Origin: Leuconostoc mesenteroides subsp. mesenteroides
Lineage (GTDB): Bacteria > Bacillota > Bacilli > Lactobacillales > Lactobacillaceae
DNA: 64,000 nucleotides
Direction of reading: 5' to 3'
NCBI GenBank assembly: GCA_009676745.1
Contig: CP046062.1
Location: forward strand, 1,039,501-1,103,500
Positions within the stretch are counted from its first letter, which is position 1; each line of letters starts with the position of its first letter. Under the pieces are notes generated by a model, which worked only from the letters and a program-made list of their open reading frames with translations, searched no databases and was not told the origin of the DNA. A program made the position numbers and the translations under genes. Below are positions 10,791 to 31,610 of the stretch, in pieces.

Positions 10791-10791
<1 letters not shown>

Positions 10792-11933
10792 TGAAGCGGA
10801 TTGGTTTTCGTGGTTATACAGCGATTATAGTTGGTATTTTGATTATCGCTGTTGGCATTTTATATTTTTTTAATGTGAATCGTGTCACACTAACAACAAG
10901 TAAAAAAACAAGTGGGGTCCAGTTGACCCAGAGCACGCCGGGTCAGTACCAAACAGTAATCAAAGATGGTCGTTATTTAGTGAGTGCAGCTCGTGGTATC
11001 ACGTCAACTTCTGAAACAAATAATCTTGATGTGAAAAACTTTGAGTCATCACTGCTTGATTTGGCCAAAACACATTTCAAAACAAGCAGCTATATTTTTC
11101 AGGAGGGACAATATTTGAGTTCGTCTACTGTTACTTCATTACTTGAACGTAAAAGTAACAGTAATAGTAATGGATTAAATCCGGAAGATAACGGTAAAAC
11201 AGATAGCTCACGTAATCCGATTTATATTCAAACACTGACCGAACAGGATTTTATGACTAAAAATGGTGACGACCTTAAGTTAGCTGGTATGGTTATCGGT
11301 GTAGCGATGAACACGCAGGATGAATACCAAAAAGAAGAGTATGGTGCTACCTATACACAAAATATTTTAGATGCTGATCGCATAGCTTATGGTGAAAAAA
11401 TTGCACCAGAAATCATCAAAAAAGTGCGAGAACAAAAGGGAGTTGATTCAGATACGCCTATTGTCATTGCTATGTATGCTAATTCCAAAACAGATTCATT
11501 AGCATCAGGAAACTTCTATGCAGAATCTACCAGCAGTAACGGGATTAACTTGAAAGAATGGACTAATATTAATCAAAAGTCTATTGTTTTGCCTAAGGAA
11601 TCAACTGATACATCAAGCTTAGGTTCAGAAGCTAACACATCTTTTGCTAATTTTAAAAATGATGTTTCGAATTTCTTTCCTAACATAGCTGGTGCTACGG
11701 CAGTCGCTAATTTTAAATCAGGTACGCTTTCTAGTATGAAGGTCACAGTCACAACACAATTTTACAGTCAAACTGAGATTGAAAGTTTTGCGACATATGT
11801 ATCTCAATCAGCACTAAAATTCTTACCAACTAATGTACCGATTCGAATAATTATTAAAGCTGCCAACGAAATGCAAGCAATTCTAGTTCGTAATTCAGGG
11901 GAAAAAACATTTACAACAACAATATTAGATTAA
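10791..11933 (+). CDS. CamS-family sex-pheromone-precursor-like protein, non-lipobox form
   Basis: This is a member of the CamS family, which in enterococci and staphylococci is a surface lipoprotein. Its place directly after ligA (TAATG overlap) is the usual CamS position. The body contains family-like segments such as YQTVIKDGRYLVSAARG and EIIKKVREQKG. The N-terminus is a single hydrophobic helix (about residues 9-28) followed by FNVNRV, with no cysteine and so no lipobox. The protein should therefore be a bitopic membrane protein rather than lipid-anchored. The gatCAB genes that often follow camS in Firmicutes are absent; a converging gene comes next. Function is unknown. Confidence 0.85.
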
Positions 11934-11963
11934 AAAAAATCGACCAACTTGGTCGATTTTTTT
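11934..11963. terminator. Bidirectional terminator between camS and the MucBP gene
   Basis: AAAATCGACCA pairs with TGGTCGATTTT around a short loop, with A- and T-tracts on either side. It is placed between two converging genes. Confidence 0.85.
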
Positions 11964-12651
11964 ATAGCTTATTAATATAGATACTGTTAATCCATCCTTT
12001 GGTAGCTATTTTATACCAAACAATATTGTTATCATGGACTTCTTCCGCGATTGCCACAAAGTCACCATCGGAGAGACTTCCGATTGGTAACCCATATGGT
12101 TCAGCATAAACTTCTATAGATTGATTAGGAAGGAAATTAACAACCGCGTTAGGCTGATTGCTTTTACTCTTTTCTGTATCATTAAAATAGTTAATATTTT
12201 CAACTTCTGGCGCTGAGTCTGATAATTTCATTTGTGTAGCATCATAACGAATCCAGTGGTGGTCACCAATTTGATACCAAAATTGACCATTGCCAGAAAT
12301 AGCGCGTAATTGTGTTGCCCAAAAAGTATTTGGATTTAAGTTTGTCGTAACGTTTGATAAATTATCTGGTTCTAGAAAAACTTGTACACTAGTCACTGTT
12401 TCAATAAACATGTTAATACGGTGTACAGCTTGCCATACTTGAGGCCGATAGTAAAGCTCTAATGATTGAGGTAGGTTACCAAACAAACCTGTCAAAGATC
12501 CTGAATTGTCAATATACTGATAATTATCGATATCGAAAATTTCGATTTCGTAAGGTGTGCCTGCTTTGCCATCTAATCTTGTTGGTTCGTGTAACTCATC
12601 ACCAGTTGCTATATTTTTATAATAAACCCATACGGGCGATGTATTTGCCAT
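11962..12651 (-). CDS. MucBP-like and SH3-like domain protein without a signal peptide
   Basis: This 229-residue protein starts MANTSPVWVYYKNIATG. The first 70 residues (VWVYYKN, GKAGTPYEI, LELYYRP) look like a MucBP repeat. The rest looks like two SH3b-type modules, each ending in a W-aromatic strand (WYQIGDHHWIRYD and WYKIATKGWINSIYI). Such domains normally occur on secreted wall proteins, but there is no signal peptide, no LPXTG motif and no membrane segment. The ATG has a good AAGGGGA site, so a longer N-terminus is unlikely. It could be cytoplasmic or leave by a non-classical route. Function unknown. Confidence 0.75.
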   Translation of the reverse strand: MANTSPVWVYYKNIATGDELHEPTRLDGKAGTPYEIEIFDIDNYQYIDNSGSLTGLFGNLPQSLELYYRPQVWQAVHRINMFIETVTSVQVFLEPDNLSNVTTNLNPNTFWATQLRAISGNGQFWYQIGDHHWIRYDATQMKLSDSAPEVENINYFNDTEKSKSNQPNAVVNFLPNQSIEVYAEPYGLPIGSLSDGDFVAIAEEVHDNNIVWYKIATKGWINSIYINKL

Positions 12652-12691
12652 AATATCCCCTTTGAATATACCTACATATTATATCATAAAC

Positions 12692-12714
12692 AAAAAACGA
12701 CTCGAAAGTCGTTT
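12692..12714 (-). terminator. Terminator of clpE
   Basis: Read on the minus strand, AAACGACT pairs with AGTCGTTT around a short TTCG loop and ends in T6. It lies 16 bases beyond the clpE stop. Confidence 0.85.
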
Positions 12715-12729
12715 CACATCACACGTAAA

Positions 12730-14847
12730 TTAAATTTTATTTACAGTAGCTGGTTCTGGCTTAACTTCACTAATAATAAATTCGTCATTTATAATATCAG
12801 CTTGTAAATGATGAACATCTGGGTGTTCTAAATAGAAATCGGCGATACCATCCGCAATTTTATCTTGCATGACACGACGAAGAGGTCGAGCACCCATCGC
12901 AGGATCATAACCAAGTTCCACTAATTTCTTTTTAGCATCAGTACTTAAATCAATGTGCAACCCGTTGTCGGATAAATTATCATTCATGTCAGTCAATAAC
13001 AAGTCGACAATATCTAGCAAATGATCTTGTGACAATGGTTGGAAATCAATGATATCATCTAATCGATTCAAGAATTCTGGACGGAAATAATTTTCTAAAC
13101 GTTGCATCAAACGATTTTGTTGATCAACTTGAGCGAATCCCACAGGTGTATTTCCTGTATCTGTCGAACCAGCATTAGAAGTCATAATAATAACAGTGTC
13201 TTTGAAGCTCACTATGTGACCTTGTGCATCAGTTAGGCGACCATCATCAAGAATTTGCAAGAACATATTCATTACATCTGGGTGCGCTTTTTCTACTTCA
13301 TCAAAGAGGACTAAGGAGTAGGGGCGACGACGAACTTGCTCTGTTAATTGACCAGCTTCTTCATAACCGACATAACCGGCAGGAGCACCAATCATTTTAG
13401 AAACAGTATGTTTTTCCATGTACTCTGACATGTCAAAACGAATCATAGCATCTTTGCTACCAAACATTTCCTTAGCTAATTGCTTGGCAGTTTCAGTTTT
13501 ACCAACACCGGTTGGCCCGACAAATAGGAATGAGCCAATTGGACGGCCAGATTTTGTTAGGCCAATACGATTACGGCGAATTGCCTTAGCTACTTTCTCT
13601 ACTGCCTCATCTTGACCAATAACATGTTTGGATAAGTTTTTATCCAAATCCTTCAGTTGATTAGCCTCGTTTTCTTTTAGAGCTCCGACAGGAATGTCGG
13701 TTTTATCTTCAACAATCTTTAAGATATCTTGCTCTGTTACTGTTTGTGGCTTTGACATCTCGGGGTGAGCCTCGACTTGTGCCTTCTGTGACTCAAGTTG
13801 GTTTACCTGATCACGCCAGTAGCTGGCTTTCTCAAAATCCTCTTTATCAATAGCTTCTTGCTTTAATTTATCAGCTGATTCGATATTTACTTGAATAGTT
13901 TTGGGATCTGCAACTTTCATTGTCAAATTTTTACGTGATCCAGCTTCATCAAGTAAATCAATTGCCTTATCTGGTAGAAATCTTTCTGGAATGTAACGAT
14001 CAGAAAGCTCAACAGCTGCTTGAAGAGCAGAATCACTAAATGTGACATAGTGATACTTTTCATATCGTTCACTAATTCCTTCTAAAATTGTGATAGTTTC
14101 TTCTTTAGAAGGTTCTTCAACTTGTACTGGTTGGAAACGACGGGCAATGGCACCATCTTTTTCAATCTTTCGATACTCATTTAAGGTTGTTGCACCAATT
14201 AATTGGAACTCACCACGAGCTAGGGCAGGCTTCAAAATATTACCTGCATCCATGCCGCCTTCAGCATTTCCGGCACCCATGATTTCATGGATTTCGTCAA
14301 TGAACAAGATGACATCGTCGCTGTTTGTAACTTCTTTCATTAATTCACGCATCCGTGCTTCGAATTGACCACGCATGCTCGTACCTTGAACTAAGGCAGA
14401 CATTTCTAAACGAATAACTTCTTTATGCTGTAACTTTTCAGGTACCTTTCCAGTTACGATAGCTTGAGCTAGTCCTTCAACAATAGCTGTCTTACCAACA
14501 CCAGGTTCACCAATGAGTACTGGATTATTCTTTGTACGACGATTTAAAATTTCAATTGTGCGAGCAACTTCGTTATCTCGACCAATAACAGGATCGAGCT
14601 TACCGTCGCGAGCTTGTTTGGTCAAATTAATACCGAACTCATCAAGTAAGCGTCTTTTTTTATTACCGTTATTATTTTTTTGTGCTTGTGTATTTTGTTG
14701 TCCTTGTGCTTGCGCCATTTGTTCATTCATTGCGCGAAACATTTCATCTAAATTACCAAAACCAAACGAATCTTGTTGTGCCATATTTTTACTTAGTGTG
14801 AAGCACCATGGAATACAGTTATTGCATTTCACCACAGTATTGCACAC
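12730..14847 (-). CDS. clpE: ATP-dependent Clp protease ATP-binding subunit ClpE
   Basis: ClpE is a class I Hsp100 ATPase that unfolds damaged proteins for ClpP. Two AAA+ modules are visible: the first with GEPGVGKT and FIDEIHEI, the second with GPTGVGKT and LFDEVEKAH. Between them is a UVR-like coiled segment ([15 protein letters not shown]), which with the lack of ClpC N-repeats indicates ClpE. The predicted start is GTG 14847, three bases after an AAAGGA site. The N-terminus ([15 protein letters not shown]) holds four cysteines in 15 residues but is far shorter than the usual CX2C-X22-CX2C zinc finger, so this domain looks reduced. A perfect CIRCE operator upstream indicates HrcA control. 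Confidence 0.92.
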
Positions 14848-14873
14848 GATTCCTTTCTGTAGGTTATGCTTTA

Positions 14874-14901
14874 ATTATAACATGATTTGAGAAAAATACA
14901 A
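14874..14901 (-). promoter_or_regulatory. clpE promoter
   Basis: On the minus strand, -35 TTGTAT (14901-14896) and -10 TATAAT (14879-14874) are separated by 16 bases. Transcription would start about 20 bases before the GTG start. Confidence 0.75.
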
Positions 14902-14907
14902 TTTAAA

Positions 14908-14934
14908 TTAGCACTCTTTTAATTAGAGTGCTAA
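14908..14934. promoter_or_regulatory. CIRCE operator (HrcA binding site)
   Basis: TTAGCACTC, nine spacer bases, then GAGTGCTAA form a perfect match to the CIRCE consensus. The site lies just upstream of the clpE -35 box on the minus strand. It is also about 35 bases upstream of the small gene at 14969 on the plus strand, so HrcA could act on both. Confidence 0.95.
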
Positions 14935-14968
14935 TTTAAAAAATGTTACAATATTAGTGAGGTGAGTG

Positions 14969-15142
14969 ATGGATTATACACAAGCATTGAATGATTTACG
15001 TGATGGAAAAATAGATGAGCTTCAGGTGACACCAGCAGTGTTTCCAGAATTTCAAAGAGCATGGGCGAATTTTGCATATCAGAATACTATACGTGGTATT
15101 GCTCATGCTCATGGTAAAGTAACATACGTTCGCTCAAATTGA
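14969..15142 (+). CDS. Small conserved-looking protein, 57 residues
   Basis: The product starts MDYTQALNDLRDGKIDEL and ends HGKVTYVRSN. It has no cysteine, signal peptide or membrane segment. A GAGGTGA site precedes the ATG. The pattern (short helix, LxVTPxxFPEFQ, then a basic GxA..GKV tail) agrees with my recollection of a small family found in lactobacilli near mreB, but I could not check this. It is transcribed towards mreB from the CIRCE side. Function unknown. Confidence 0.7.
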   Translation: MDYTQALNDLRDGKIDELQVTPAVFPEFQRAWANFAYQNTIRGIAHAHGKVTYVRSN

Positions 15143-15238
15143 TGTGCGAATTAACTCATTTTTATGCTACAATACTATAAGTTAAGTAAAATTTAAATGT
15201 GTTGCAATTGCAGTAGTAACACGATAAGGGGCAGTACA

Positions 15239-16246
15239 GTGGCATTTTCATTTGGACAAAAAAATGTTGGTATCGATCTGGGTACCGCTAACACATATGT
15301 ATATATCGAAGGTCGGGGCATCATATTACGTGAACCATCAGTAGTTGCGCGTAATACACAAACCAATGAAGTCGTTGCTGTAGGTTCTGAAGCTAAAGAC
15401 ATGTTAGGTCGGACGCCTGCAAGTATCGCTGCTATCCGTCCAATGCGTGATGGTGTTATTGCCGATTACGATACAACTGTTGAAATGATTCGCTATTATT
15501 TGCAAAAAGCACTTGGCGGACGTATTGGTAAACCTTATGTAACGATTGGTGTACCTTCGGGAGTAACAGCGGTTGAAAGACGTGCTGTTATTGATGCTGC
15601 TCGTGTTGCTGGTGCGCGTGATGCTTATGTTATAGAGGAACCATTTGCCGCAGCGGTTGGTGCTGGATTACCGGTTATGGACCCTACTGGATCAATGGTT
15701 GTTGACATGGGCGGTGGAACAACTGATGTTGCGACAATTTCATTGGGCGGGATTGTTTCAAGTCGTTCAATTCGTATAGCCGGAGATAAGCTAGACGAGG
15801 CAATAGCTAATTTTGTGCGTAACAAATATAACGTTACCATTGGTGAGCCAACAGCTGAAAGGCTCAAAATCGAAATTGGTGCTGCGTCACTTGCTTTAGC
15901 AAGAACTTTACCAAATGCTACGGTTAGAGGTCGGGACTTATTGACTGGTTTACCTAAAACTATTGATGTCACCGCCGAAGATGTTGCCACATCAATTCAA
16001 GAACCAGTGCAAGAAATCGTGGCAGCTATTCGTGAGACGTTAGAATCGACACAGCCTGAGCTAGCTGCAGATGTTATTGATCACGGTATGATTTTGACTG
16101 GTGGTGGGGCTTTATTACGCGACATTGAAAAAATTATTCAAGATGCAACTAAAGTGCCAGTCTTAATAGCTAACGAGCCATTAGATGCAGTTGCTATTGG
16201 TACTGGTGAGGCGTTGAAATCTATTGATGTCATGCGACAAAAGTAA
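15239..16246 (+). CDS. mreB: Rod-shape determining protein MreB
   Basis: MreB is the actin-like protein that forms membrane-bound filaments guiding lateral wall synthesis. Phosphate-binding motifs are visible: [10 protein letters not shown] at residues 8-17, the VDMGGGTTD loop near 155, and the adenosine motif LTGGGALL near 285. The 335-residue length is normal. I chose GTG 15239, preceded by AAGGGG seven bases away; an upstream in-frame ATG at 15197 would add a Cys-rich tail not found in MreB. mreC and mreD follow, but a hairpin terminator separates them from mreB. Leuconostoc cells are coccoid to short rods, so keeping mreBCD is noteworthy but not contradictory. Confidence 0.95.
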
Positions 16247-16260
16247 GGGTAGTTTAAAAT

Positions 16261-16287
16261 AGCGTGGCGCTTGCGCTACGCTTTTAT
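16261..16287 (+). terminator. Terminator after mreB
   Basis: AGCGTGGCGC pairs with GCGCTACGCT (one G-T pair) and is followed by TTTTATTT. It separates mreB from mreC. Confidence 0.75.
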
Positions 16288-16407
16288 TTATTTTTAAGAT
16301 TTAATGTCAAATAAAAGTTTCTAAATTAAAACAAAGTAACGTACCATTAGAATAGATGAAACTGTCAACTGTTTGTAGAAGTGGTAACTGGCTTTTTGGG
16401 GAAATAC

Positions 16408-17265
16408 ATGAAGAAAATATTTTCATCACGCACTTTGGTATCAATAATTGTTGCGTTTATAGTAATTGTAAGTTTGATTGCAGGATCTAATTGGTGGGCC
16501 AAAAGAACGAATACACCACCTTTTTTACAGCGTTTTGGAAATGATTTAGCCGGCGGTGTCAGCCGTATTATTGCTGTTCCAACGACTGCAGTTGGGCGTA
16601 CAGCAAATAGTATTAGTAATCTGTTAGATACATTTGAAGAAAACAAACGGTTGAAATCTAAGATTGATGAATTTGCCCAAGACAAGGTTCACTTACAAAC
16701 AGTTGAAGAAGAGAACAAATCTCTGAAGCAACAATTAAAACTAAAAGCCACATTGACGGACTATAAAACAGTCTCAGCTGTAACCATCAGTCGTTCACCT
16801 ACTACCTGGCAGTCACAATTAGTTATTGATGAAGGATCCAATTCAGGTTTGAAAAAAGGGATGCCTGTACTTGCTGGTGCCGGAATTATTGGACGCATTA
16901 GTGAAGTAAACACAACTAATTCAAAAGTGGCTTTGATTTCTGACACTAGTTCTGACGCCAATAGGTTTGCGATTAAAATTAAAGGTGATGATGGTGATGT
17001 TAACGGCATTGTAACAAGTTTTAATCGTGAAAAAAATCAACTAATTATGGGACAAGTGACATCAAATAATAAAATCAGTAAAGGTGACTTAGTTGAAACT
17101 TCTGGTCTCGGCGGTGTCATTCCAGCAGGCTTGTATGTTGGTAAGGTGGCTAGTGTCACGACGGATGATTATGGTTTATCCAAGAAAATATATATTGAAC
17201 CTGCAGCTGATCTAGGCAATATCACCACAGTCATGGTTGCAATTTCACAGATAGGAGCAAATTAA
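16408..17265 (+). CDS. mreC: Rod-shape determining protein MreC
   Basis: MreC is a bitopic membrane protein linking cytoplasmic MreB to extracytoplasmic wall enzymes. A transmembrane helix at about residues 10-28 is followed by a coiled coil (about 70-115, EENKRLK...EEENKSLKQQL) and a beta-rich region with GMPVLAGAGIIGRI and GGVIPAGLYVGKV. The length of 285 residues fits. I chose ATG 16408 because GGGGA lies five bases upstream; a GTG at 16381 would add nine residues. The stop shares a base with mreD (TAATG). Confidence 0.93.
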   Translation: MKKIFSSRTLVSIIVAFIVIVSLIAGSNWWAKRTNTPPFLQRFGNDLAGGVSRIIAVPTTAVGRTANSISNLLDTFEENKRLKSKIDEFAQDKVHLQTVEEENKSLKQQLKLKATLTDYKTVSAVTISRSPTTWQSQLVIDEGSNSGLKKGMPVLAGAGIIGRISEVNTTNSKVALISDTSSDANRFAIKIKGDDGDVNGIVTSFNREKNQLIMGQVTSNNKISKGDLVETSGLGGVIPAGLYVGKVASVTTDDYGLSKKIYIEPAADLGNITTVMVAISQIGAN

Positions 17266-17792
17266 TGGCATTTTGGCAATTGACGAGATTGCGTGTAATT
17301 TATCCTGTGTTATTATTTTTGATACTGTTTGTTGATGGAACATTCATGTCTAGCATGGGGGGGTTATTTACACAATTTCCTTGGCACATTTTACCTACTT
17401 TGACACTTGGTTGGCTCTTTCTAGGTGTCCAATTTGATGTTGAAAATGAACTGCCGTTATGGTTTTATGTTGTAGTCATTGGTATATTGTTTGATATGTA
17501 TTATACTGGTATTTTCGGTACATATACTTTTGCGTTTATTGCTGCGGTAGCCGTGATGAAGCAACTACACCTAGTTCTAGATGAACGTTTAGTCAGTGGC
17601 TTACTTTTATATTTATCCGGATTGCTTATTTACCTAATAATTTCTTATGTTAGTGGATTTGTTACAGGAATCGCTAATGTTAGCATATCGTCATTTTTAT
17701 TGTACGAGGTATTGCCAACAGTAATTTTAAATCTAGTTTTTGCTGCTTTATCATATTATCCCGTATGGTCTCTATTTCAGTTTCTGCGTTGA
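17265..17792 (+). CDS. mreD: Rod-shape determining protein MreD
   Basis: MreD is a small polytopic membrane protein that works with MreC in wall elongation. The 175 residues contain about five hydrophobic helices, and GILFDMYYTGIFG is the characteristic motif. It overlaps mreC by one base and has AGGAG upstream. Its stop codon overlaps the -35 box of the following T-box promoter. Confidence 0.88.
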   Translation: MAFWQLTRLRVIYPVLLFLILFVDGTFMSSMGGLFTQFPWHILPTLTLGWLFLGVQFDVENELPLWFYVVVIGILFDMYYTGIFGTYTFAFIAAVAVMKQLHLVLDERLVSGLLLYLSGLLIYLIISYVSGFVTGIANVSISSFLLYEVLPTVILNLVFAALSYYPVWSLFQFLR

Positions 17793-17817
17793 CAAGTTAT
17801 CTTTTTATAGTTATAAT
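17789..17817 (+). promoter_or_regulatory. Consensus promoter of the T-box operon
   Basis: A perfect TTGACA (17789-17794), 17-base spacer and perfect TATAAT (17812-17817). The -35 box overlaps the mreD stop codon. Transcription should start near 17824, just before the T-box leader. Confidence 0.88.
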
Positions 17818-17834
17818 TATGAGTATATATTAAA

Positions 17835-18083: not shown

Positions 18084-18085
18084 TT

Positions 18086-18192: not shown

Positions 18193-18264
18193 TTTTATAA
18201 ATATGATTTTTGTATTGTTAAAATATATGAGTTATAAGCGCAATTTAATAAAGGAGTTTCAATT

Positions 18265-18906
18265 ATGAGTTATCTAACTACAATTCTTCCCAGTTTATTG
18301 GCTGGATTAAAAACAACGCTAGGTGTGTTCTTTCTAACAATCGTTGGATCTGTACCATTAGGGATATTGGTTTCCTTAGGGATGAAATCACCTTACTTTA
18401 CAATACGTTGGTTGATTAACGGTTATATCTGGATTATGCGTGGTACGCCACTACTTTTACAATTGATTTTTATCTACTATGGTCTTGGAATGATGGGTAT
18501 AGCATTTCCACGATTTGAAGCTGCTGTTATAGCGTTTGTTATTAATTATGCAGCCTATCTGGCTGAAATTTTCCGTGGTGGACTACAATCAGTTCCAAGA
18601 GGACAATATGATGCTGCTAAAGTACTCGGTTTTAGTAAAATACAAACATTCTTCAAAATAATCTTGCCACAAGTAATAAAAATTGTTGTTCCCTCATTTG
18701 GTAACGAAGTAATTAACCTGGTCAAGGACACCTCTTTAGTTTATGTTATTGGCTTAGGAGATATATTGCGAGCAGGAAATATTGCAGCTAGTCGTGACGT
18801 CACTTTGATGCCATATTTATTGGTTGGATTAATATATTTGGTCATGACAGCAATTGTCACATTGTTATTGCGTCGTAGTGAAACAGTTCTGAATACTTGG
18901 AGGTAA
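18265..18906 (+). CDS. Polar amino-acid ABC transporter permease
   Basis: This is a membrane subunit of a His/Glu/Gln-type amino-acid importer. It has 213 residues with about five helices. The N-terminal region has WIMRGTPLLLQL and the EAA loop reads FRGGLQSVPRGQYDAAKVLG, the site that docks the ATPase. A strong AAGGAG site precedes the ATG. It is the first gene after the tandem T-box, followed by the ATPase (4 bases away) and binding protein. Only one permease gene is present, so it probably acts as a homodimer. Confidence 0.92.
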   Translation: MSYLTTILPSLLAGLKTTLGVFFLTIVGSVPLGILVSLGMKSPYFTIRWLINGYIWIMRGTPLLLQLIFIYYGLGMMGIAFPRFEAAVIAFVINYAAYLAEIFRGGLQSVPRGQYDAAKVLGFSKIQTFFKIILPQVIKIVVPSFGNEVINLVKDTSLVYVIGLGDILRAGNIAASRDVTLMPYLLVGLIYLVMTAIVTLLLRRSETVLNTWR

Positions 18907-18910
18907 TTTA

Positions 18911-19549
18911 ATGTTAGAAATCAAAAACTTAACTAAAAAATACAATCAAAATGTGATTTTTAAATCCCTTAATCTAACAGTGCATGATGGTGAAGTATTA
19001 AGCATTGTCGGACCTTCTGGTATTGGTAAAACAACCTTAATTAAAATCATGGCGGGACTAGAAACGGCAGACGATGGCGAAATTATTTTAAATGGTAAAA
19101 ATATTGATATAAAAGGTGAAAGTTCCAATACAAATATTGGCATGATTTTCCAAGACTTCAATTTATTTCCAAACTACACAGTCATTGACAATATCACGTT
19201 AGCACCGATTAATGTTAATAAACAGTCTCCGTCAAAGGCTGTTAAACAAGGACATGAAATTTTGGAATCATTGGGTATGTTAAATAAAGCGAACTTATTT
19301 CCCTATCAATTATCTGGTGGTCAAAAGCAGCGCGCAGCTATTGCACGTGCGTTGGCCATGAATCCGAAGATTTTGGCATATGATGAACCTACAAGTGGAC
19401 TAGATGAAGAATCGACACACCAAGTCGCTGATGTTGTTAAAACGCTTAAAGAGCGTGGTGTAACGCAAGTCATAATTACGCATGATCAGCCATTTGCTGA
19501 GATAGTTTCTGATCGCGTATTTGATTTCGCAACGGAGGTAAAACGCTAA
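18911..19549 (+). CDS. Amino-acid ABC transporter ATP-binding protein
   Basis: This cytoplasmic ATPase powers the importer. Motifs: Walker A GPSGIGKTT near residues 35-42, Q-loop MIFQDFNLFP, signature LSGGQKQR and Walker B ILAYDEPTSG, with a switch His in IITHDQ. At 212 residues it is somewhat shorter than typical members of about 240, missing part of the C-terminus. Its stop shares a base with the binding-protein start (TAATG). Confidence 0.92.
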   Translation: MLEIKNLTKKYNQNVIFKSLNLTVHDGEVLSIVGPSGIGKTTLIKIMAGLETADDGEIILNGKNIDIKGESSNTNIGMIFQDFNLFPNYTVIDNITLAPINVNKQSPSKAVKQGHEILESLGMLNKANLFPYQLSGGQKQRAAIARALAMNPKILAYDEPTSGLDEESTHQVADVVKTLKERGVTQVIITHDQPFAEIVSDRVFDFATEVKR

Positions 19550-20403
19550 TGCCAAGCATGAAAAAGAAGATTATTGTCAATAGTATTGTTGGTATTTTAT
19601 TTATCTTATTGGTTGTTATGGCAGGCCTCTCTTTATCTAATAATTCCCAAAAAAGCAAAAGTACAGAACAGACAGTGGTGAAAACGGATCAGTGGTCACG
19701 AATCAAGAGAGAAAAGCAAATTACGATTGGTTTAGATGATACATTTGTTCCAATGGGATTTCGTGATAAATCGGGTAAATTAGTAGGGTTTGATGTCGAT
19801 TTGGCAACTGCTGTGTTCAAGAGTTTGGGTATTAAGGTAAAATGGCAACCCATCGATTGGTCAATGAAAGAAACAGAATTAAATACCGGAAACATTGATG
19901 CTATCTGGAACGGCTATACAGTTACAGATGACCGAAAAAAGAAAGTTGCTTTTTCAATACCTTACCATAAGGCAACACAAGTGCTGGTTACTTTAAAGAA
20001 AAGTAACATAAATCAGTTTTCTGATATGCAAGATAAAGTATTGGGCGATCAAACAGCTTCAAGTGGTGATCAAACTTTTGCACAATATCCTAAAGTTTTG
20101 AAACAATATGTTAAAGATCAAAAGGTTATTGGCTATGATACTTTTGATAAAGCATTCAATGATCTGAATGCGAATCGCATTGATGGGCTGTTGATTGATG
20201 AAGACTATGCACGTTATTATGTTGCGCACCAATCTAACCCGAATGATTATACAATTACAACAGGTGGTTACCCGGTGAATGACAATGCAGTTGGCTTCCG
20301 CAAAGCAGATAAAAAATTACGACAAGCAGTAAATAAAGAATTAACAACTTATGAAAAGGATGGTCGTTTACAAAAATATAGTACGAAATGGTTTGGTAAT
20401 TGA
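19549..20403 (+). CDS. Amino-acid ABC transporter substrate-binding protein, membrane-anchored
   Basis: This extracytoplasmic receptor of the T-box-controlled importer belongs to the bacterial solute-binding family 3. The ligand domain shows ITIGLDDTFVPMGFRD, LVGFDVDLA and WNGYTVTDDR, classic for amino-acid binding. The N-terminus (MPSMKKKIIVN then a hydrophobic stretch to about residue 28) is a membrane anchor with no cysteine, so there is no lipobox although the family is usually lipid-anchored. ATG 19549 has GGAGG ten bases upstream; ATG 19558 is less favoured. Substrate is not certain; see the T-box entry. Confidence 0.92.
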   Translation: MPSMKKKIIVNSIVGILFILLVVMAGLSLSNNSQKSKSTEQTVVKTDQWSRIKREKQITIGLDDTFVPMGFRDKSGKLVGFDVDLATAVFKSLGIKVKWQPIDWSMKETELNTGNIDAIWNGYTVTDDRKKKVAFSIPYHKATQVLVTLKKSNINQFSDMQDKVLGDQTASSGDQTFAQYPKVLKQYVKDQKVIGYDTFDKAFNDLNANRIDGLLIDEDYARYYVAHQSNPNDYTITTGGYPVNDNAVGFRKADKKLRQAVNKELTTYEKDGRLQKYSTKWFGN

Positions 20404-24472: not shown

Positions 24473-24486
24473 TCTTGTGGGCTATT

Positions 24487-25362
24487 ATGAATGAAACTTT
24501 AACAAATCAAATAGGCGAACAACTGAAAGCGGCTCGCTTAGACAAACAATTATCATTAGATGATATTCAAGAAATTACAAAAATCCAACGCCGGTATTTA
24601 TTAGCTATTGAAGAAAACAATCTTAGCGTTTTACCTGGTGATTTTTATGTTCGTGCTTTTATTCGGCAATATGCATTAGCTGTAGGGTTACATCCTGATG
24701 AACTATTAGGGGAAGCAAAACCAATGTCTATGTCTCGAACTAGCGATTTGAGCCGAGCTCACAGGGATAATGATGGCATTGTTCGTGCAGGAATAGATAA
24801 TACACCAACGGCAAAATCGAGGTTGGCAAATTCTATGCCAACAATTGGTTTAGGGCTATTGATTCTCGTAGCTTTAATAGTTATTTGGTTTGTACTGACA
24901 CATATAGGAACTAATTCTCAACAGACATCTAATAGCGGTAATATCTCTGTTTCTACCTCTGAGGTTTCTCAATCTTCGCGTAAATCATCAGCACCAAAGT
25001 CATCTGAGTCTAGCGCCAGTGAGAAATCTGCGACACTTGATTTAGGTACACCTGAAATAAATACAAGCTTGCAGACGACAATCTATAACTTGTCTAATGA
25101 AAATACTAAAAAGCATACAGTTGTTATAACAGCGAAGAACACAGGTACTTCGGTTAAGGTTAATGATGCTAATAGTAATATTTTGCTAAATGAAACATTG
25201 GCTAGTGGCAGTAAAACAGTAGAAATTCCAACGGGAACAACGGCATTTAACCTACAGTTTTCTAATATTAATAATGCTTCAGTTACGGTTGACGGACAAA
25301 ATGTTGAAATAAGTGGGACAACAACAACATTTTGGAATGTGCTTTTTAATCTCAATAAATAA
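24487..25362 (+). CDS. rodZ: RodZ-like helix-turn-helix membrane protein
   Basis: RodZ links the MreB cytoskeleton to the membrane and wall machinery. Residues 1-75 form an HTH of the RodZ type (LKAARLDKQLSLDDIQEITKI, FYVRAFIRQYA). A transmembrane helix at about 120-142 follows, then a Ser-rich linker and a C-terminal beta-rich domain. ATG 24487 is chosen over a TTG at 24475. It corresponds to Bacillus ymfM, which is likewise next to pgsA. With mreBCD earlier in the window, a full elongation scaffold is encoded. Confidence 0.85.
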   Translation: MNETLTNQIGEQLKAARLDKQLSLDDIQEITKIQRRYLLAIEENNLSVLPGDFYVRAFIRQYALAVGLHPDELLGEAKPMSMSRTSDLSRAHRDNDGIVRAGIDNTPTAKSRLANSMPTIGLGLLILVALIVIWFVLTHIGTNSQQTSNSGNISVSTSEVSQSSRKSSAPKSSESSASEKSATLDLGTPEINTSLQTTIYNLSNENTKKHTVVITAKNTGTSVKVNDANSNILLNETLASGSKTVEIPTGTTAFNLQFSNINNASVTVDGQNVEISGTTTTFWNVLFNLNK

Positions 25363-25372
25363 AGGATGTATC

Positions 25373-25954
25373 ATGAATTTACCCAATAAACTAACGGTTT
25401 TCAGAATTATTTTAATCCCAGTATTTATTTTATTACTGACAGTACCATATGCTTGGTCTAATATTAGTTTTTTAGGATCAACTATACCTATTAACTGGTT
25501 GATTGCCGCTTTCGTCTTTGCAGTAGCTTCTGCAACGGATTTCTTGGACGGTCAGATAGCTCGTAAACAGCATTTAGTTACTAATTTTGGAAAGTTTGCG
25601 GATCCTTTGGCTGACAAACTTTTGGTTATGACAGCATTAATTTTCTTAACGAGTTTCAATGTTGTGCCAGCCTGGATGACTGCGGTTATTGTTATTCGAG
25701 AGTTAGCCGTTACAGGCTTACGTACACTAATTGTTGAAAACAATGGTCAAGTTTTGGCAGCACAGATGCCAGGAAAGATAAAAACATTTTCACAAATGTT
25801 TGCTATTTTCTTCTTATATATTCGTAACGCCCCATTTTCTAGTATTAATTTTCCGATTGGGGATGTCCTGTTGTGGGTTGCAGTTATCTTTACAATCTAT
25901 TCCGGTATCGATTATTTTTGGCAAAATAGAAATGTCTTTTCTGACGGCATGTAA
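25373..25954 (+). CDS. pgsA: CDP-diacylglycerol--glycerol-3-phosphate 3-phosphatidyltransferase
   Basis: PgsA makes phosphatidylglycerol phosphate, the first committed step to phosphatidylglycerol and cardiolipin. The CDP-alcohol phosphatidyltransferase signature spans ATDFLDGQIARKQH and FGKFADPLADK (D..DG..AR...G...D...D). The 193 residues include several membrane helices. ATG 25373 follows AAAGGATG. It shares an operon with cls, so substrate and product enzymes of this lipid branch are co-located. A terminator follows; cinA, often next, is absent. Confidence 0.94.
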   Translation: MNLPNKLTVFRIILIPVFILLLTVPYAWSNISFLGSTIPINWLIAAFVFAVASATDFLDGQIARKQHLVTNFGKFADPLADKLLVMTALIFLTSFNVVPAWMTAVIVIRELAVTGLRTLIVENNGQVLAAQMPGKIKTFSQMFAIFFLYIRNAPFSSINFPIGDVLLWVAVIFTIYSGIDYFWQNRNVFSDGM

Positions 25955-25960
25955 GAGACT

Positions 25961-25984
25961 AAAAGCGCTTTTAGCGCTTTTTTC
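25961..25984 (+). terminator. Terminator after pgsA
   Basis: AAAGCGC pairs with GCGCTTT around a TTTTA loop, followed by T6. It separates the pgsA operon from recA. Confidence 0.82.
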
Positions 25985-26012
25985 GTATAATCAAAAAGAA
26001 AGCAAACAGAAA

Positions 26013-26026
26013 CGAACAAATGTTCG
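26013..26026. promoter_or_regulatory. LexA (DinR) SOS box upstream of recA
   Basis: CGAACAAATGTTCG is a perfect palindromic match to the Gram-positive SOS box core (CGAAC-N4-GTTCG). It lies immediately upstream of the recA -35 box. Confidence 0.9.
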
Positions 26027-26034
26027 AAAAACAC

Positions 26035-26063
26035 TTGCTTTTGACCCACGAAAAAGGTACACT
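26035..26063 (+). promoter_or_regulatory. recA promoter
   Basis: TTGCTT (26035-26040), 17 bases, TACACT (26058-26063). The LexA box ends nine bases upstream of the -35 hexamer. Confidence 0.65.
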
Positions 26064-26093
26064 AATCAAGTAAGATAAAAGGAGTTAGCCGCA

Positions 26094-27251
26094 ATGGTAG
26101 CAAAAAAAACGACTAAAAAAGATGATCAAGCAAAAAAAGATGGTCGTCGAGCCGCGCTAGATGAAGCGTTAAAGAAAATTGAAAAGAACTTTGGGAAAGG
26201 TTCAGTGATGACGTTAGGCGATAATGCGCTAACGCAAATTGAAACGATTCCTTCTGGTTCTGTTAAAATTGATGTTGCCCTGGGTGTTGGTGGCTATCCC
26301 AAGGGTCGTATTATTGAAGTATACGGTCCAGAATCATCAGGTAAAACAACCATCGCACTTCATGCAGTTGCTGAAGTTCAAAAACAAGGTGGAACAGCAG
26401 CCTATATTGATGCCGAAAACGCTTTAGATGTCAAATATGCTGAAGCTCTTGGTGTTAAAAAAGACGAATTACTTTTGTCACAACCGGATACAGGCGAACA
26501 AGGATTAGAAATTGCTGATGCTTTGGTACAATCAGGTGCCGTAGATATGATTGTTGTTGACTCAGTTGCTGCATTAGTACCTCGTGCTGAAATTGAAGGT
26601 GAGATGGGTGATGCACACGTTGGATTGCAAGCTCGTTTAATGAGTCAGGCACTGCGTAAGTTAGCAGGAACTTTAAACAGAACGGGAACAATCGCTATTT
26701 TCATCAATCAAATTCGTGAAAAAGTCGGCGTAATGTTTGGAAACCCAGAAACTACACCCGGTGGTCGTGCATTAAAGTTTTATTCGACAGTGCGTTTAGA
26801 AGTTAGACGTTCAACACAAATTAAAGATGGTACGGATGTCACTGGTAATTTAACAAAAGTTAAAATTGTTAAAAATAAAGTGGCTCCACCATTCAAAGTT
26901 GCTGAAGTTGATATTATGTATGGACATGGTATCTCACAGACAGGTGAAATTCTTGACCTCGCTGTTGATCAAGATATTATCGACAAAGCAGGTGCATGGT
27001 ACGCCTACGAAGGAGAACGAATTGGTCAAGGACGTGAGAAAGCCAAAGATTATCTAGATGATCCTGAGCATGCCGAACTGCGACAAGAACTTTATGTCAA
27101 GGTACGTCAAGCATATGGTATTGATTCTAATGCGAATGGTACTGCCGTTTCAAATACAGAAGCTCAAGCAGAAAAATCTGATGAACAAATCAATTTATCG
27201 GATGTGGATACATCGAGTGATGATGCTTTAACGGACGAACCAATTGTATAA
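26094..27251 (+). CDS. recA: Recombinase RecA
   Basis: RecA forms filaments on single-stranded DNA for homologous recombination and triggers LexA self-cleavage. Walker A GPESSGKT is near residues 81-88, [10 protein letters not shown] is Walker B, and the L1/L2 regions follow ([25 protein letters not shown]). At 385 residues it is slightly long because of an acidic C-terminal tail. AAGGAG precedes the ATG. Regulation by LexA is supported by the SOS box. Confidence 0.98.
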
Positions 27252-27266
27252 ATTATGTAAATATTG

Positions 27267-27298
27267 AGAAAAACGTTAGGTCGTTTTTCTTTTTTTTG
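27267..27298 (+). terminator. Terminator after recA
   Basis: GAAAAACG pairs with CGTTTTTC around TTAGGT, followed by a T7 run. Confidence 0.88.
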
Positions 27299-27333
27299 TT
27301 ACAATTCAAGTATACAAATGCATGGAGATGGAC

Positions 27334-28026
27334 ATGACTAATATACTTGTTGTTGATGATGAAACGGCAATTTCAACACTGTTGCAATACAATTTGCAGC
27401 AGAACGGTTACGAAGTGACAGTTGCATCGGATGGCTTATTCGCTTATCAAAAGGCAAAAGAGCAACAATTTGATGCAATATTGCTGGATCTAATGTTGCC
27501 AGAGATGGATGGCATGACCGTTTTAAAACAGTTACGTCAAGATAAAGTTAGCACACCAATAATTTTGGTGACTGCAAAAGGCGATGAGTTTGATCGTGTG
27601 CTTGGGTTAGAATTAGGTGCAGATGACTATATCACTAAACCCTTTAGCCCTCGGGAGGTTGTGGCAAGATTAAAAGCAGTACTACGTCGTTCGCAAGTTA
27701 CTACAGATAGCAACGAAACCGATGAAATGGTTATTTCTATACAAGATTTGCTTATTAACGATAGTAAAAAAACAGTGATGAAAGAAAATATTGTTCTGTC
27801 CTTGACACCACGGGAATATGATTTATTATTATATTTTGCACAACGATTGGGTCGTGTAATTGATCGTGAAACAATTTTGACGGCTGTATGGGGATATGAA
27901 TATACTGGTGAAAGCCGTATGGTAGATATGCACATTAGTAACTTGCGTGATAAGATTGAGTCAAATCCAAAGGCACCTAAAATATTGAAAACAGTTCGCG
28001 GATTTGGCTACACTATGACCAATTAG
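27334..28026 (+). CDS. phoP: Phosphate response regulator (PhoB/PhoP type)
   Basis: This OmpR-family regulator is expected to switch on phosphate uptake genes. The receiver domain shows LVVDDE at the N-terminus, the phosphoacceptor Asp in ILLDLMLPEMDG near residue 53, and a conserved Lys in YITKPF. A winged-helix DNA-binding domain makes up the C-terminal half (TPREYDLLLYFA, VWGYEY, VRGFGYTM). I chose ATG 27334, preceded by GGAG six bases away. Its sensor phoR lies 1.2 kb downstream, with pstS1 inserted between the two. Confidence 0.92.
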   Translation: MTNILVVDDETAISTLLQYNLQQNGYEVTVASDGLFAYQKAKEQQFDAILLDLMLPEMDGMTVLKQLRQDKVSTPIILVTAKGDEFDRVLGLELGADDYITKPFSPREVVARLKAVLRRSQVTTDSNETDEMVISIQDLLINDSKKTVMKENIVLSLTPREYDLLLYFAQRLGRVIDRETILTAVWGYEYTGESRMVDMHISNLRDKIESNPKAPKILKTVRGFGYTMTN

Positions 28027-28114
28027 TGTTTTCATAGATATATTATTATCATAGTAAATGGCAAGCTTTGGACATAGCGTCAAAAGAGAGCCATTTTTGT
28101 TTTGTAAATTTTTC

Positions 28115-28130
28115 TTTACACGCATTTACA
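28115..28130 (+). promoter_or_regulatory. Candidate Pho box upstream of pstS1
   Basis: Two direct TTTACA repeats start at 28115 and 28125. They resemble the spaced TTnACA-like repeats bound by PhoP in Bacillus and by related regulators in lactobacilli. The same hexamer recurs upstream of pstS2. Confidence 0.6.
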
Positions 28131-28260
28131 AGAATTCGACCAAATTGTGGCGTGTTTCATAACATAACTCTCGTAATATATAAGTTGTAAACAAGGAGTG
28201 GCACCCAAGAGCCTCTACTACAACCTTGTTTCATTACATATTTCTAAGGGAGAAACCTTC

Positions 28261-29169
28261 ATGAACAAAAAGATTGTAGGAATTATTGGTGGTATAGTGG
28301 TCATTGTGGCTGGAATTGCCTTGTATACTTCTGCTAATGATAAGTCCAGCAATAGCAAAACAAGTACAACGTCATCTTCTAAAGTAAGTGGCAAAGTGTT
28401 ATCGTTAGGATCAACGGCATTACAGCCTTTAGCAGAGCAAGTTGCTAAGTCATTTCAGGAGAAAAATCCTAATGTAACAATTACGGTACAAGGGGGTGGG
28501 TCGGGTGCTGGGCTAAGTCAAGTATCTGATGGTTCAGCACAAATTGGGAACTCAGATGTATTTGCTGAAGAAAAAGATGGTATTGACGCTACTAAACTAG
28601 TAGATCATAAAGTAGCTGTAGTTGGTATTGCGCCGGTTGTGAATAGTGATGTGCAGATTACGAGTTTAACAAAGGAACAATTACGTAATATTTTTACTGG
28701 CAAAGTAACAAATTGGAAAGAAGTTGGTGGTAACGATGAAAAAATTGTTGTTATCAATCGTGCAACTGGTTCGGGAACACGTGCTGTTTTTGAAAAAAAT
28801 GTTTTGGACGGTCAGGATGCTGTACAAGCGACGGAACAAGATTCCAATGGTACAGTACAAAAAATTGTCAAAACGACACCAGGATCAATTTCGTACTTGG
28901 CATTTGCCTACCTCGACTCTGACGGTATCAAGGCATTGGACTTAAATAAAGTTCATCCTAACAAACAAAATGTTGAAGATAATTCATGGCCAATATGGGC
29001 TTACGAACACATGTACACTAAGGGAAATCCAACTGGTGCTACTAAGTCCTTCTTAGATTACTTTACAACCAAAGAAGTTCAAAAAAATATTGTACCTAAG
29101 CTAGGATACATTGGATTAACAGATATGAAAGTCACTCGTGATGCAAGTGGCAAAGTAACAGATAAATAA
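28261..29169 (+). CDS. pstS: Phosphate ABC transporter substrate-binding protein, copy 1
   Basis: This extracytoplasmic phosphate receptor feeds the PstCAB transporter. The ligand-binding signature is present: LGSTALQPL, GGGSGAGLSQV, ATGSGTR and TKEQLRNIFTGKVTNWKEVGG. Its N-terminus is one hydrophobic helix (about residues 5-24) followed by a Ser/Thr/Lys-rich linker. There is no cysteine, so it is not a classical lipoprotein. ATG 28261 has AGGGAG upstream. It is a stand-alone unit with its own Pho-like repeats and terminator, placed between phoP and phoR. Copy 2 at 30729 is a clear paralog. Confidence 0.93.
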   Translation: MNKKIVGIIGGIVVIVAGIALYTSANDKSSNSKTSTTSSSKVSGKVLSLGSTALQPLAEQVAKSFQEKNPNVTITVQGGGSGAGLSQVSDGSAQIGNSDVFAEEKDGIDATKLVDHKVAVVGIAPVVNSDVQITSLTKEQLRNIFTGKVTNWKEVGGNDEKIVVINRATGSGTRAVFEKNVLDGQDAVQATEQDSNGTVQKIVKTTPGSISYLAFAYLDSDGIKALDLNKVHPNKQNVEDNSWPIWAYEHMYTKGNPTGATKSFLDYFTTKEVQKNIVPKLGYIGLTDMKVTRDASGKVTDK

Positions 29170-29180
29170 ACCTACTATAT

Positions 29181-29205
29181 AAACAAGCATTAAGCTTGTT
29201 TTTTT
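29181..29205 (+). terminator. Terminator after pstS1
   Basis: AAACAAGC pairs with GCTTGTTT around ATTAA, followed by T5. Confidence 0.87.
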
Positions 29206-29233
29206 GTGTTAAAGTTATGCAAATTTAAAACCA

Positions 29234-29242
29234 TGATAGAAT
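29234..29242 (+). promoter_or_regulatory. Extended -10 promoter of phoR
   Basis: TG-A-TAGAAT forms an extended -10 element that ends six bases before the phoR ATG, with TTATGC a possible -35. Transcription would start at or within a base or two of the start codon. Confidence 0.6.
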
Positions 29243-29248
29243 AAACTT

Positions 29249-30589
29249 ATGAAGAAAAAAATTGGTAAAATAACCAGCGTATTCAGTATAAATATTTTAT
29301 TATTATTTATAGTAACTCGAGTAATCCATGTACCTCATAATCAACTCTACATATTAATTATTATATTTTTTGTAGTAACTATTTTTGAGATTTGGTTTTT
29401 AAATTTTTGGCAGAATAAAGAAACAGCAGAATTAACTATTATGAAGAATAGAATGATTGCTACTTCAGCTGGAAAAACACCACGGGGTGTTTTAGCAGAA
29501 CCAACATCTCCATACTATGAATTATTAGAACAGTTCAATGAATTACAAAGCTATGTTCGCCACTCACAATATAGTGCTAATCGTGAAATAAATAATTACC
29601 AGACACTATTAGCCAGTCTACCAGTTGGGGTTATTAATGTTAGTCGTCATCATATGATAGATGTTTTCAATCAATCGGCAGCCGATATGCTTGGTGTAGA
29701 AGTGCCAGAATTACCAACTTTAGATAGTTTAGTGATTCGTCAGTTTACGTTGTCAGAAATCATTAGTCATACCTTCAACACGAATCAAAGACAGCACTCC
29801 ATTTTGAACTTGACGGTTGATGGCGAGGCACGGCAGTATGATGTTAGCACATCATTTCATCAATCTGGATCAAATTCAGAAGTGATGGTTATGTTGTATG
29901 ATTTGACGGAAGTATTGAAATTAGAACGCATGCAAGCCGATTTTTTGGCCAATGCTTCGCATGAGTTTAAAACACCTTTGACTGCGATAACTGGATTTGT
30001 TGAGACATTACAAGGTGATGCAGGAGCGGACGAAGAAACGAGAACTCAATTTTTGCAAATTGTGGCAGATGAGGCGAGACGTTTATCAGCACTGGTTAAT
30101 GACATATTGTCTTTGTCACGTATGCAACATAAAGTAGATGAAAAAATTTCTCAGTTGCAAATTTCAGCTATCGTTGAACAGCAATTAGAAAAAATCGATA
30201 CTAAAACGGTTACGGTACACAATGATATTGCATCAGACTTCAGCGTATCAGGAGTTGCTAGTGATGTGTCCACCATCATTCAAAATTTATTAACTAATTC
30301 AGTTAAGTATAATAAAATAAATGGTGAAGTTTGGATATCAGCATGCAAAAATATGCAACAATGGCAAATAACGGTCAGCGACTCGGGGATTGGTATTCCA
30401 CTGAACCAGCAGTCTCGTATATTTGAGCGCTTCTATCGAGGTGACGAATCAAGACAACGTAAAATAGCAAGTGGTACTGGATTGGGGCTTGCAATTGTCA
30501 ATGAGATTGTGAACCAACATAATGGGGAAATCAATATTAAATCACAGGTAGGTGTCGGGACGACAATTAGTGTTATTCTACCTTTGTAG
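29249..30589 (+). CDS. phoR: Phosphate sensor histidine kinase
   Basis: This membrane sensor kinase pairs with the regulator at 27334. Two helices lie within residues 8-55, followed by a HAMP-like/linker region and a PAS-like domain (about 110-210). The phosphorylated His lies in FLANASHEFKTPL near residue 237. ATPase boxes follow: LLTNSVKYN (N), SDSGIGI (G1) and GTGLGLAIV (G2). At 446 residues the length is normal. No Shine-Dalgarno site precedes ATG 29249; together with the promoter placement this suggests a leaderless message. Confidence 0.92.
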   Translation: MKKKIGKITSVFSINILLLFIVTRVIHVPHNQLYILIIIFFVVTIFEIWFLNFWQNKETAELTIMKNRMIATSAGKTPRGVLAEPTSPYYELLEQFNELQSYVRHSQYSANREINNYQTLLASLPVGVINVSRHHMIDVFNQSAADMLGVEVPELPTLDSLVIRQFTLSEIISHTFNTNQRQHSILNLTVDGEARQYDVSTSFHQSGSNSEVMVMLYDLTEVLKLERMQADFLANASHEFKTPLTAITGFVETLQGDAGADEETRTQFLQIVADEARRLSALVNDILSLSRMQHKVDEKISQLQISAIVEQQLEKIDTKTVTVHNDIASDFSVSGVASDVSTIIQNLLTNSVKYNKINGEVWISACKNMQQWQITVSDSGIGIPLNQQSRIFERFYRGDESRQRKIASGTGLGLAIVNEIVNQHNGEINIKSQVGVGTTISVILPL

Positions 30590-30640
30590 AAAAGTACCAA
30601 AACAGTAAAATTGATGTTTGTGTATGAAAACATCATGCTC

Positions 30641-30679
30641 TTTACACAATCTTTACATAAAAGCGTTTTGACATTTACA
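30641..30679 (+). promoter_or_regulatory. Candidate Pho box array upstream of pstS2-pstCAB-phoU
   Basis: TTTACA hexamers start at 30641, 30652 and 30674. The spacing is 11 bases and then 22 bases (two turns), with a weaker half-site expected at 30663. Phasing on one DNA face is typical of PhoP/PhoB sites. A GATAAT-like -10 (30689-30694) follows. Confidence 0.7.
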
Positions 30680-30728
30680 CAAGTTTAAGATAATAAATAT
30701 GTAGTAGTAAATCTTGGGAGGCATGAAC

Positions 30729-31610
30729 ATGTCGAAATCATATCGCGGTTCAATCGTATTCACGATTGCAGCTGTGGCAGTTGTTGCAGCGCTTGGAACA
30801 GCGTATGCAATGCGCGATAAAAGTGCGTCAAATACGTCAATCACTGCAGTTGGGTCAACTGCTTTACAGCCACTGGTTGAAGCTGCTGGTGAGGAATACG
30901 CTAAAGATAATCTTGGTACCTTTATCAATGTTCAGGGTGGTGGAACAGGCACAGGACTGAGTCAAGTGTCGCAAGGTGCTGTTGACATTGGTAATTCTGA
31001 TGTATTTGCTGAAGAAAAAGATGGTATTGATGCTAAAGCGTTAATTGATCATCAGGTTGCGGTTGTCGGTATTGCGCCACTATTGAATAAACACAACGGT
31101 GTCAAAAATTTGACAACTAAACAGCTCATTTCTATCTTTACCGGAAAGGTAACGAATTGGAAAGAGGTTGGTGGTAATGATCAAAAAATCGTCATCATTA
31201 ACCGTGCAGCTGGATCAGGGACACGTGCCACTTTTGAACAGTGGGGATTGAATGGTGCACAAAGTACAGAGGCACAGGAGCAAGATTCTTCAGGAATGGT
31301 TCGTTCAATTGTTAGCACGACACCAGGGGCTATCTCGTATGCAGCCTTTGGTTATATTGATGCCAGTGTGGTAGCGCCTAAAGTTAATGGTGTAAAACCT
31401 ACTAAACAGAATGTCGTTTCTGGAAAATATGCCATTTGGTCGTATGAACATGTTTACACTAAAGGAAAACCCTCCGAACCTGTAGCTAAGTTTTTAAACT
31501 ATTTAACTTCCGAAAAGGTTCAATCAACACTTGTATCAAAACTAGGATACATATCAATACATGACATGAAGATTAGTCGTGACGTAAATGGTCAAGTAAC
31601 TAGAAAATAA
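30729..31610 (+). CDS. pstS: Phosphate ABC transporter substrate-binding protein, copy 2
   Basis: This second phosphate receptor is the first gene of the pst operon. It shares with copy 1 the motifs GSTALQPL, GGGTGTGLSQV, NSDVFAEEKDGID and GSGTRA. Its N-terminus has a hydrophobic helix (about residues 10-28) and no cysteine, so again no lipobox. I chose ATG 30729, seven bases after GGGAGG; ATG 30723 and TTG 30714 are too close to that site. The two copies look like an old duplication, because identity is moderate and spread along the whole length. Confidence 0.93.
   Translation: MSKSYRGSIVFTIAAVAVVAALGTAYAMRDKSASNTSITAVGSTALQPLVEAAGEEYAKDNLGTFINVQGGGTGTGLSQVSQGAVDIGNSDVFAEEKDGIDAKALIDHQVAVVGIAPLLNKHNGVKNLTTKQLISIFTGKVTNWKEVGGNDQKIVIINRAAGSGTRATFEQWGLNGAQSTEAQEQDSSGMVRSIVSTTPGAISYAAFGYIDASVVAPKVNGVKPTKQNVVSGKYAIWSYEHVYTKGKPSEPVAKFLNYLTSEKVQSTLVSKLGYISIHDMKISRDVNGQVTRK

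Follow-up and report, generated by a model that had tools for sequence, protein, structure and literature searches.

Binding proteins without lipoboxes and the probable loss of lipoprotein lipidation in Leuconostoc and its relatives

Introduction

How does a bacterium hold its binding proteins when they offer no N-terminal cysteine to which a lipid could be attached? The question is raised by a 64,000-nucleotide stretch of DNA from Leuconostoc mesenteroides subsp. mesenteroides (contig CP046062.1, positions 1,039,501 to 1,103,500; hereafter the window), which lies within contig 1 of a 1.85 Mb Leuconostoc genome that is 99.99% complete. Four proteins of lipoprotein-class families are encoded in it:

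10791-11933, + strand: CamS family protein (PF07537, E = 3.5e-103), N-terminal helix, no lipobox
19549-20403, + strand: amino-acid binding protein, SBP_bac_3 (PF00497, E = 2.9e-41), N-terminal helix, no lipobox
28261-29169, + strand: PstS1 phosphate-binding protein (PBP_like_2, PF12849, E = 8.9e-41), N-terminal helix, no lipobox
30729-31610, + strand: PstS2 phosphate-binding protein (PBP_like_2, PF12849, E = 1.9e-38), N-terminal helix, no lipobox

Family assignment was clear for each of them: CamS scored 345.6 bits against PF07537 (cut-off 25), the amino-acid binding protein 140.8 bits against PF00497 (cut-off 26.4), and PstS1 and PstS2 278.5 and 279.8 bits, respectively, against the PstS-family model TIGR02136 (cut-off 206.6). 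All four N-termini, the last of which (MSKSYRGSIVFTIAAVAVVAALGTAYAMRD) is that of PstS2, consist of positive residues followed by a hydrophobic helix and contain not a single cysteine. PstS1, read here as MNKK... from 28261, could alternatively start with GTG at 28198, and PstS2 with TTG at 30714. The lipobox that marks a bacterial lipoprotein, taken, after PMC5817068, as the consensus [LVI][ASTVI][GAS]C where the signal peptide ends, is missing from each of the four proteins. An earlier sequence-only reading of this DNA, which had described a helical start without an N-terminal cysteine in all four, is borne out by gene positions and Pfam families alike.

Absence of Lgt and LspA

Profile searches of the window's own genome gave no match to the LGT family (PF01790) and none to the signal peptidase II (LspA) family (PF01252). 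The pair of enzymes expected of a genome that makes lipoproteins is thus missing here. In the following, labels beginning with G, L and g denote genomes, loci and genera of the compared sets. Across the same family, LGT matches were found in 253 of 301 genomes; in six of the 253, belonging to the window's genus (g1) and to g18, they were fragments only, corresponding to the last third of the gene. Five of the 40 genera (g2, g7, g8, g29 and g39) had no LGT match at all; of the 48 genomes that gave none, 20 were listed. By CamS N-termini matching named loci, g18 was placed as Weissella and g29 as Oenococcus. LspA matches occurred in 247 of the 301 genomes and in none of the 15 from the window's genus.

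A further 36 genomes, of no stated completeness, were reached via named CamS loci. Full-length Lgt was found in none of the 24 from what we call the Lgt-minus clade (seven Leuconostoc, three Fructobacillus, two Convivina, nine Weissella, one Oenococcus and two further relatives), 23 of which gave nothing and one, L. carnosum, a fragment. It was present in all three genomes of the sister genus Periweissella and in all nine of other lactobacilli. Of 295 genomes at the order level, 287 gave an LGT match, which in G054 is a fragment. The other eight comprise six of the Lgt-minus clade and two genomes that are 72% and 89% complete.

The place where lgt would be expected could be located in the window:

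37729-38694, + strand: hprK (PF07475, E = 1.3e-59), left edge of the ancestral lgt slot
38687-38694, + strand: empty lgt slot
38687-39697, + strand: gpsA (PF07479, E = 2.5e-56), right edge of the ancestral lgt slot

In the five Lgt-plus genomes examined, lgt directly follows hprK and is itself followed by gpsA in four and by a trxB-like gene in one (G008), the neighbours being named by eye. All ten Lgt-minus genomes examined have hprK and then gpsA without lgt between them. In the window, the start codon of gpsA lies within the end of hprK, the two genes sharing eight bases; therefore, no remnant of lgt is left at the slot. The corresponding lspA slot was not located: with the neighbours in L005 as guides, the 46% of the genome covered yielded only a distant match (38% identity) to an adjoining gene. 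These results uphold the claim of the sequence-only reading that the lipidation pathway has been lost, the Lgt-minus genomes agreeing with the window's own.

Distribution of lipoboxes

Open reading frames (ORFs) were called in-house and scanned with a single pattern, the Gram-positive form of the lipobox, with inner starts up to 60 codons tested. None of 790 ORFs (362 + 64 + 364) in 861 kb, or 46% of the window's own genome, carried a lipobox, nor did any of 364 ORFs in a sample of G018 (by its CamS a Weissella) or of 371 in a sample of G029 (by its CamS an Oenococcus). Pooled, the three Lgt-minus genomes gave 0 of 1525. Two Lgt-plus relatives, in contrast, gave 5 of 397 and 5 of 347 ORFs, or 10 of 744 together, with one hit (L159) looking doubtful. 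The Fisher p-value for this contrast is 1.4e-5, or 4.2e-5 without L159 and 2.7e-5 when 77 hitless Periweissella ORFs join the Lgt-plus side; since the rows share ancestry, all three values are descriptive only. With that proviso, the counts agree with the sequence-only reading that four of four is unlikely to be chance.

In the window's own genome, 14 proteins of lipoprotein-class families were read, and none has a lipobox. Besides the four of the window, they are four ZnuA-family proteins, a phosphonate-binding protein, a second SBP_bac_3 protein, and one each of Bmp, NlpA/MetQ, SBP_bac_8 and Peripla_BP_6. One ZnuA-family protein has a cysteine within the helix, but it is preceded by valine. 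Accordingly, other binding proteins with intact lipoboxes, the observation that would have told against the sequence-only reading, did not turn up among those read.

The same division runs through single families. CamS, present in all 29 genomes searched, has a lipobox by eye in 12 of 12 Lgt-plus genomes versus 0 of 17 Lgt-minus ones. Among named CamS loci, the best 80 of 427 (with several strains of one species and some metagenome-assembled genomes; 36 of their genomes were searched for Lgt), the lipobox is missing from all 48 of the Lgt-minus genera and present in all 32 from elsewhere, Periweissella included. The nearest of the named loci listed to the window's CamS is that of Leuconostoc litchii (88% identity). 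For PstS, lipoboxes were seen in 0 of 17 Lgt-minus versus 6 of 8 Lgt-plus proteins; 25 of 27 matches were read (one fell below the cut-off and one was the second half of a broken gene), and 24 entered the PstS tree. For free SBP_bac_3 proteins the counts are 0 of 9 versus 6 of 8, with L288 of Periweissella, which reads LAGC, counted as a lipobox although the pattern missed it. Long SBP_bac_3 copies of 480-513 residues, taken for permease fusions, are without a lipobox on both sides (nine Lgt-minus, four Lgt-plus). The SBP_bac_3 set comprised 53 matches, 30 of them with loci read, among these five of the six in the window's own genome (the sixth lies near C1 435 kb). In G007, a 91% complete genome whose CamS resembles that of Leuconostoc fallax, the pstS copies have broken or odd frames (L252, L275, L277); its rows L252 and L285 show odd N-termini and are probably frame-broken.

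A probable single loss

Both LigA and PcrA were found for 79 of the 80 loci, and a tree of the two proteins was built from 39 named loci. The 24 Lgt-minus rows form one clade in it with Periweissella as sister, Oenococcus being on a long branch. Under a mixture model with a quick search, the clade has a Shimodaira-Hasegawa-like approximate likelihood-ratio (SH-aLRT) support of 97; under a simpler model its support is 98/95, and it is found in 98% of 200 bootstrap trees. This topology fits a single loss of the pathway in the common ancestor. Given that the loss would be one event, the cross-species counts are no independent evidence of its cause, and what counts as evidence is instead how many protein families underwent the change within a single line of descent. 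The parallel change proposed in the sequence-only reading is thus retained in the sense that several proteins of several families changed along one lineage, but not in the sense of independent losses.

Proposed mechanism and alternatives

It is very probable, in our judgment, that Lgt and LspA were lost once in the ancestor of the clade, with their former substrates mostly helix-anchored and some secreted, and with a mixed order of changes. In this scheme, the common ancestor of Leuconostoc, Fructobacillus, Convivina, Weissella and Oenococcus would have lost both enzymes after Periweissella had split off, most simply once. Binding proteins that in other Firmicutes are tied through a diacylglyceryl-cysteine would here be held mostly by an uncleaved N-terminal helix, that is, a signal anchor, and some would probably undergo cleavage by signal peptidase I and be secreted. 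With Lgt still present, the amino-acid binding protein and PstS2 would have left the pathway, and CamS and PstS1 would have changed along the branch that lost Lgt. Having fewer substrates left may have made the loss of Lgt affordable; we infer that such stepwise weaning lowered its cost. We also hold it fairly likely that a whole free-living lineage with ordinary-sized genomes makes no lipoproteins, that some of its binding proteins moved singly to helix anchors with Lgt still present before the pathway was lost, and that Periweissella is a living intermediate.

Several observations weigh against this account and are given here together with the explanations on which they bear. Most of the proteins might be cut by signal peptidase I, with the free binding proteins retained by the cell wall. 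The helix of PstS2 ends in ...GTAYA, making signal peptidase I cleavage possible; in the same genome the helix of the phosphonate-binding protein ends in ...NVHA and that of one ZnuA-family protein in ...TVRA, both cleavable-looking by eye. For PstS of G029 (Oenococcus) and of G252 (Weissella), the ends read by eye are ...TSAFA and ...NIYA, and the window's genome encodes a type I signal peptidase-like protein (L153, named by eye). However, a crude test found AXA near the helix end in none of the 48 CamS proteins of the Lgt-minus clade, which favours an uncleaved CamS anchor. Inspection by eye showed no such motif in CamS or the amino-acid binding protein of the window, and the AYA motif of PstS2 is not retained in G293 and G006. 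Cleavage of most of the proteins thus appears rather unlikely, and an uncleaved helix anchor for most with secretion for some would better describe them. The plain membrane anchor of the sequence-only reading fits CamS best, but it does not extend to those orthologues that look cleavable.

According to the sequence-only reading, all four proteins were converted in parallel after loss of the pathway. The CamS lipobox is kept in all three Periweissella genomes, and the PstS1 orthologues of all three read LAAC, as opposed to none of the seven Lgt-minus copies that group with them in the PstS tree. Since Periweissella keeps these lipoboxes, CamS and PstS1 changed after it had split off; their change maps to the branch that also saw the loss of Lgt and could have come before, with or after that loss, so that conversion after the loss is possible for these two. 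In contrast, the Periweissella orthologues found for the amino-acid binding protein (2 of 2) and for PstS2 (1 of 1, G326) have no lipobox, and neither has the PstS2-type copy of the Lgt-plus genome G013, whose amino-acid binding protein does have one (LSGC). Because the Periweissella genomes bear Lgt, the amino-acid binding protein and PstS2 would have changed before Lgt was lost, which contradicts conversion after the loss for this pair. A conversion of all four only after the loss is therefore improbable. The early change is read from one Periweissella genome for PstS2 and from two for the amino-acid binding protein, and several branches in the trees of both families are moderately supported. 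In the window (28261-31610), PstS1 and PstS2 belong to different clades of the PstS tree and have unlike lipobox histories. Periweissella itself keeps Lgt alongside some binding proteins without a lipobox (L099, L100, L105, L266, L267, L272, L283 and L290), and may represent an intermediate stage in which fewer lipoproteins remain.

The remaining observations against the proposed account mostly concern what the searches could see. The B. subtilis control genome gave no PF01790 match in any LGT search, yet the species carries lgt (gerF; PMC13068155); the profile search can thus miss a real Lgt. A missed Lgt is nevertheless unlikely in Leuconostoc, given the empty lgt slot and the order-level result. 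The lipobox scan covers only 46% of the window's genome, and 100 kb of Lgt-plus Periweissella gave 0 of 77 ORFs with a lipobox, which makes scans of such short samples weak. In addition, two Weissella genomes contain an intact LspA reading frame (L047, 1483-1938; L046), adjoining a transposase-like gene and one for a membrane protein resembling, by eye, the cadmium-resistance type. Both genomes are without full-length Lgt, and the contig of G252 also has an lgt fragment at a distance of about 1.3 kb.

An enzyme that is unrelated to Lgt, or very divergent, might also still produce lipoproteins, just as archaea have non-homologous lipidation enzymes (PMC13251419). However, the proteins read offer no conserved N-terminal cysteine as a target, with no lipobox in the 14 lipoprotein-class proteins or the 48 CamS proteins, and LspA is missing as well; we give this explanation very little credence. 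The chance that the absence is an artefact of wrong starts, missing contigs or masked sequence is negligible, even with in-house ORF calling and a control that missed B. subtilis, as the genome is nearly complete, starts well inward were tested, the slot is contiguous and 24 further genomes agree.

Relation to known systems

Deletion of lgt in L. plantarum WCFS1 leaves viable cells, the gene being dispensable for laboratory growth and the predicted lipoproteins being released (PMC7403179). Loss of Lgt is thus affordable; its cost is small in L. plantarum and larger, via metal uptake, in S. pneumoniae (PMC7403179 and PMC3404074). The Leuconostoc clade resembles the deletion mutants of both species in living without Lgt. 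In the mutants, however, the substrates keep their lipoboxes and are either released or less abundant on the cell surface, whereas in the Leuconostoc clade the substrates themselves have changed, across five genera.

Natural absence of lgt is described in PMC13251419 for the endosymbionts or obligate intracellular bacteria Buchnera and Orientia, named there as small-genome bacteria. The Leuconostoc clade shares with them a genome without lgt but differs in genome size (1.2-2.2 Mb) and in having several ATP-binding cassette (ABC) importers. Its lactic acid bacteria live in food and on plants. The closest parallel to the window's PstS2 is found in the PstS2-type proteins of Lgt-bearing Periweissella G326 and of G013, which belong to the same family and have a helix in place of the lipobox. 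There, however, such a protein is one among lipoproteins, as opposed to all 14 lipoprotein-class proteins read in the window's own genome.

A 2026 paper states that Lgt is present in all bacteria and treats it as an antibiotic target (PMC13251419); the present finding bears on that statement. Another includes Leuconostoc in a list of genera that have a homologue of one staphylococcal lipoprotein, and says nothing about lipidation at that point (PMC5020093). In the literature as far as it was accessible, no paper was found stating that Leuconostocaceae are without lgt or lspA, and earlier notice is possible. A culturable lineage without Lgt makes it testable which functions need a lipid anchor, how importers take up their substrates when the binding protein is free or tethered by a helix, and through which steps a near-universal pathway disappears. 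Leuconostoc, Weissella and Oenococcus would be predicted to lack lipoprotein ligands of TLR2 and to be insensitive to inhibitors of Lgt or LspA such as globomycin, and the database label "lipoprotein" would be misleading for their proteins.

Neighbouring genes and lgt fragments

Around the amino-acid binding protein and the two pstS genes, further ORFs were named by eye:

18265-18906: permease-like ORF, upstream of the amino-acid binding protein
18911-19549: ATPase-like ORF, upstream of the amino-acid binding protein
29249-30589: histidine-kinase-like gene, between the two pstS genes
31663 and 32586: permease-like ORFs, downstream of PstS2

LGT matches with E of about 1e-13 in Leuconostoc and Weissella were considered as a second kind of Lgt and rejected, being fragments of profile positions 154-240, several with stops. 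At the two Leuconostoc loci examined, genes resembling Dps, Crp/Fnr and CopZ adjoin the fragments, and one locus has a P-type ATPase as well (all by eye). A truncated lgt was seen in a Dps-Fnr-lgt-CopZ-P-ATPase cassette of Leuconostoc (L036, L041, L333 at 2908-3174, and L334), plasmids included, where it is annotated in L. gasicomitatum and unannotated in L. suionicum. The idea that an acquired lgt decays in hosts without lipoboxes was set aside as saying little, similar short matches being found on plasmids of Latilactobacillus curvatus, Listeria and Enterococcus. The plasmid matches considered are 60 of 518 records, with the ten commonest genera named, and an intact plasmid lgt in the Lgt-minus clade is possible. 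Plasmids of Carnobacterium and Enterococcus carry an annotated lgt at the same position of the cassette.

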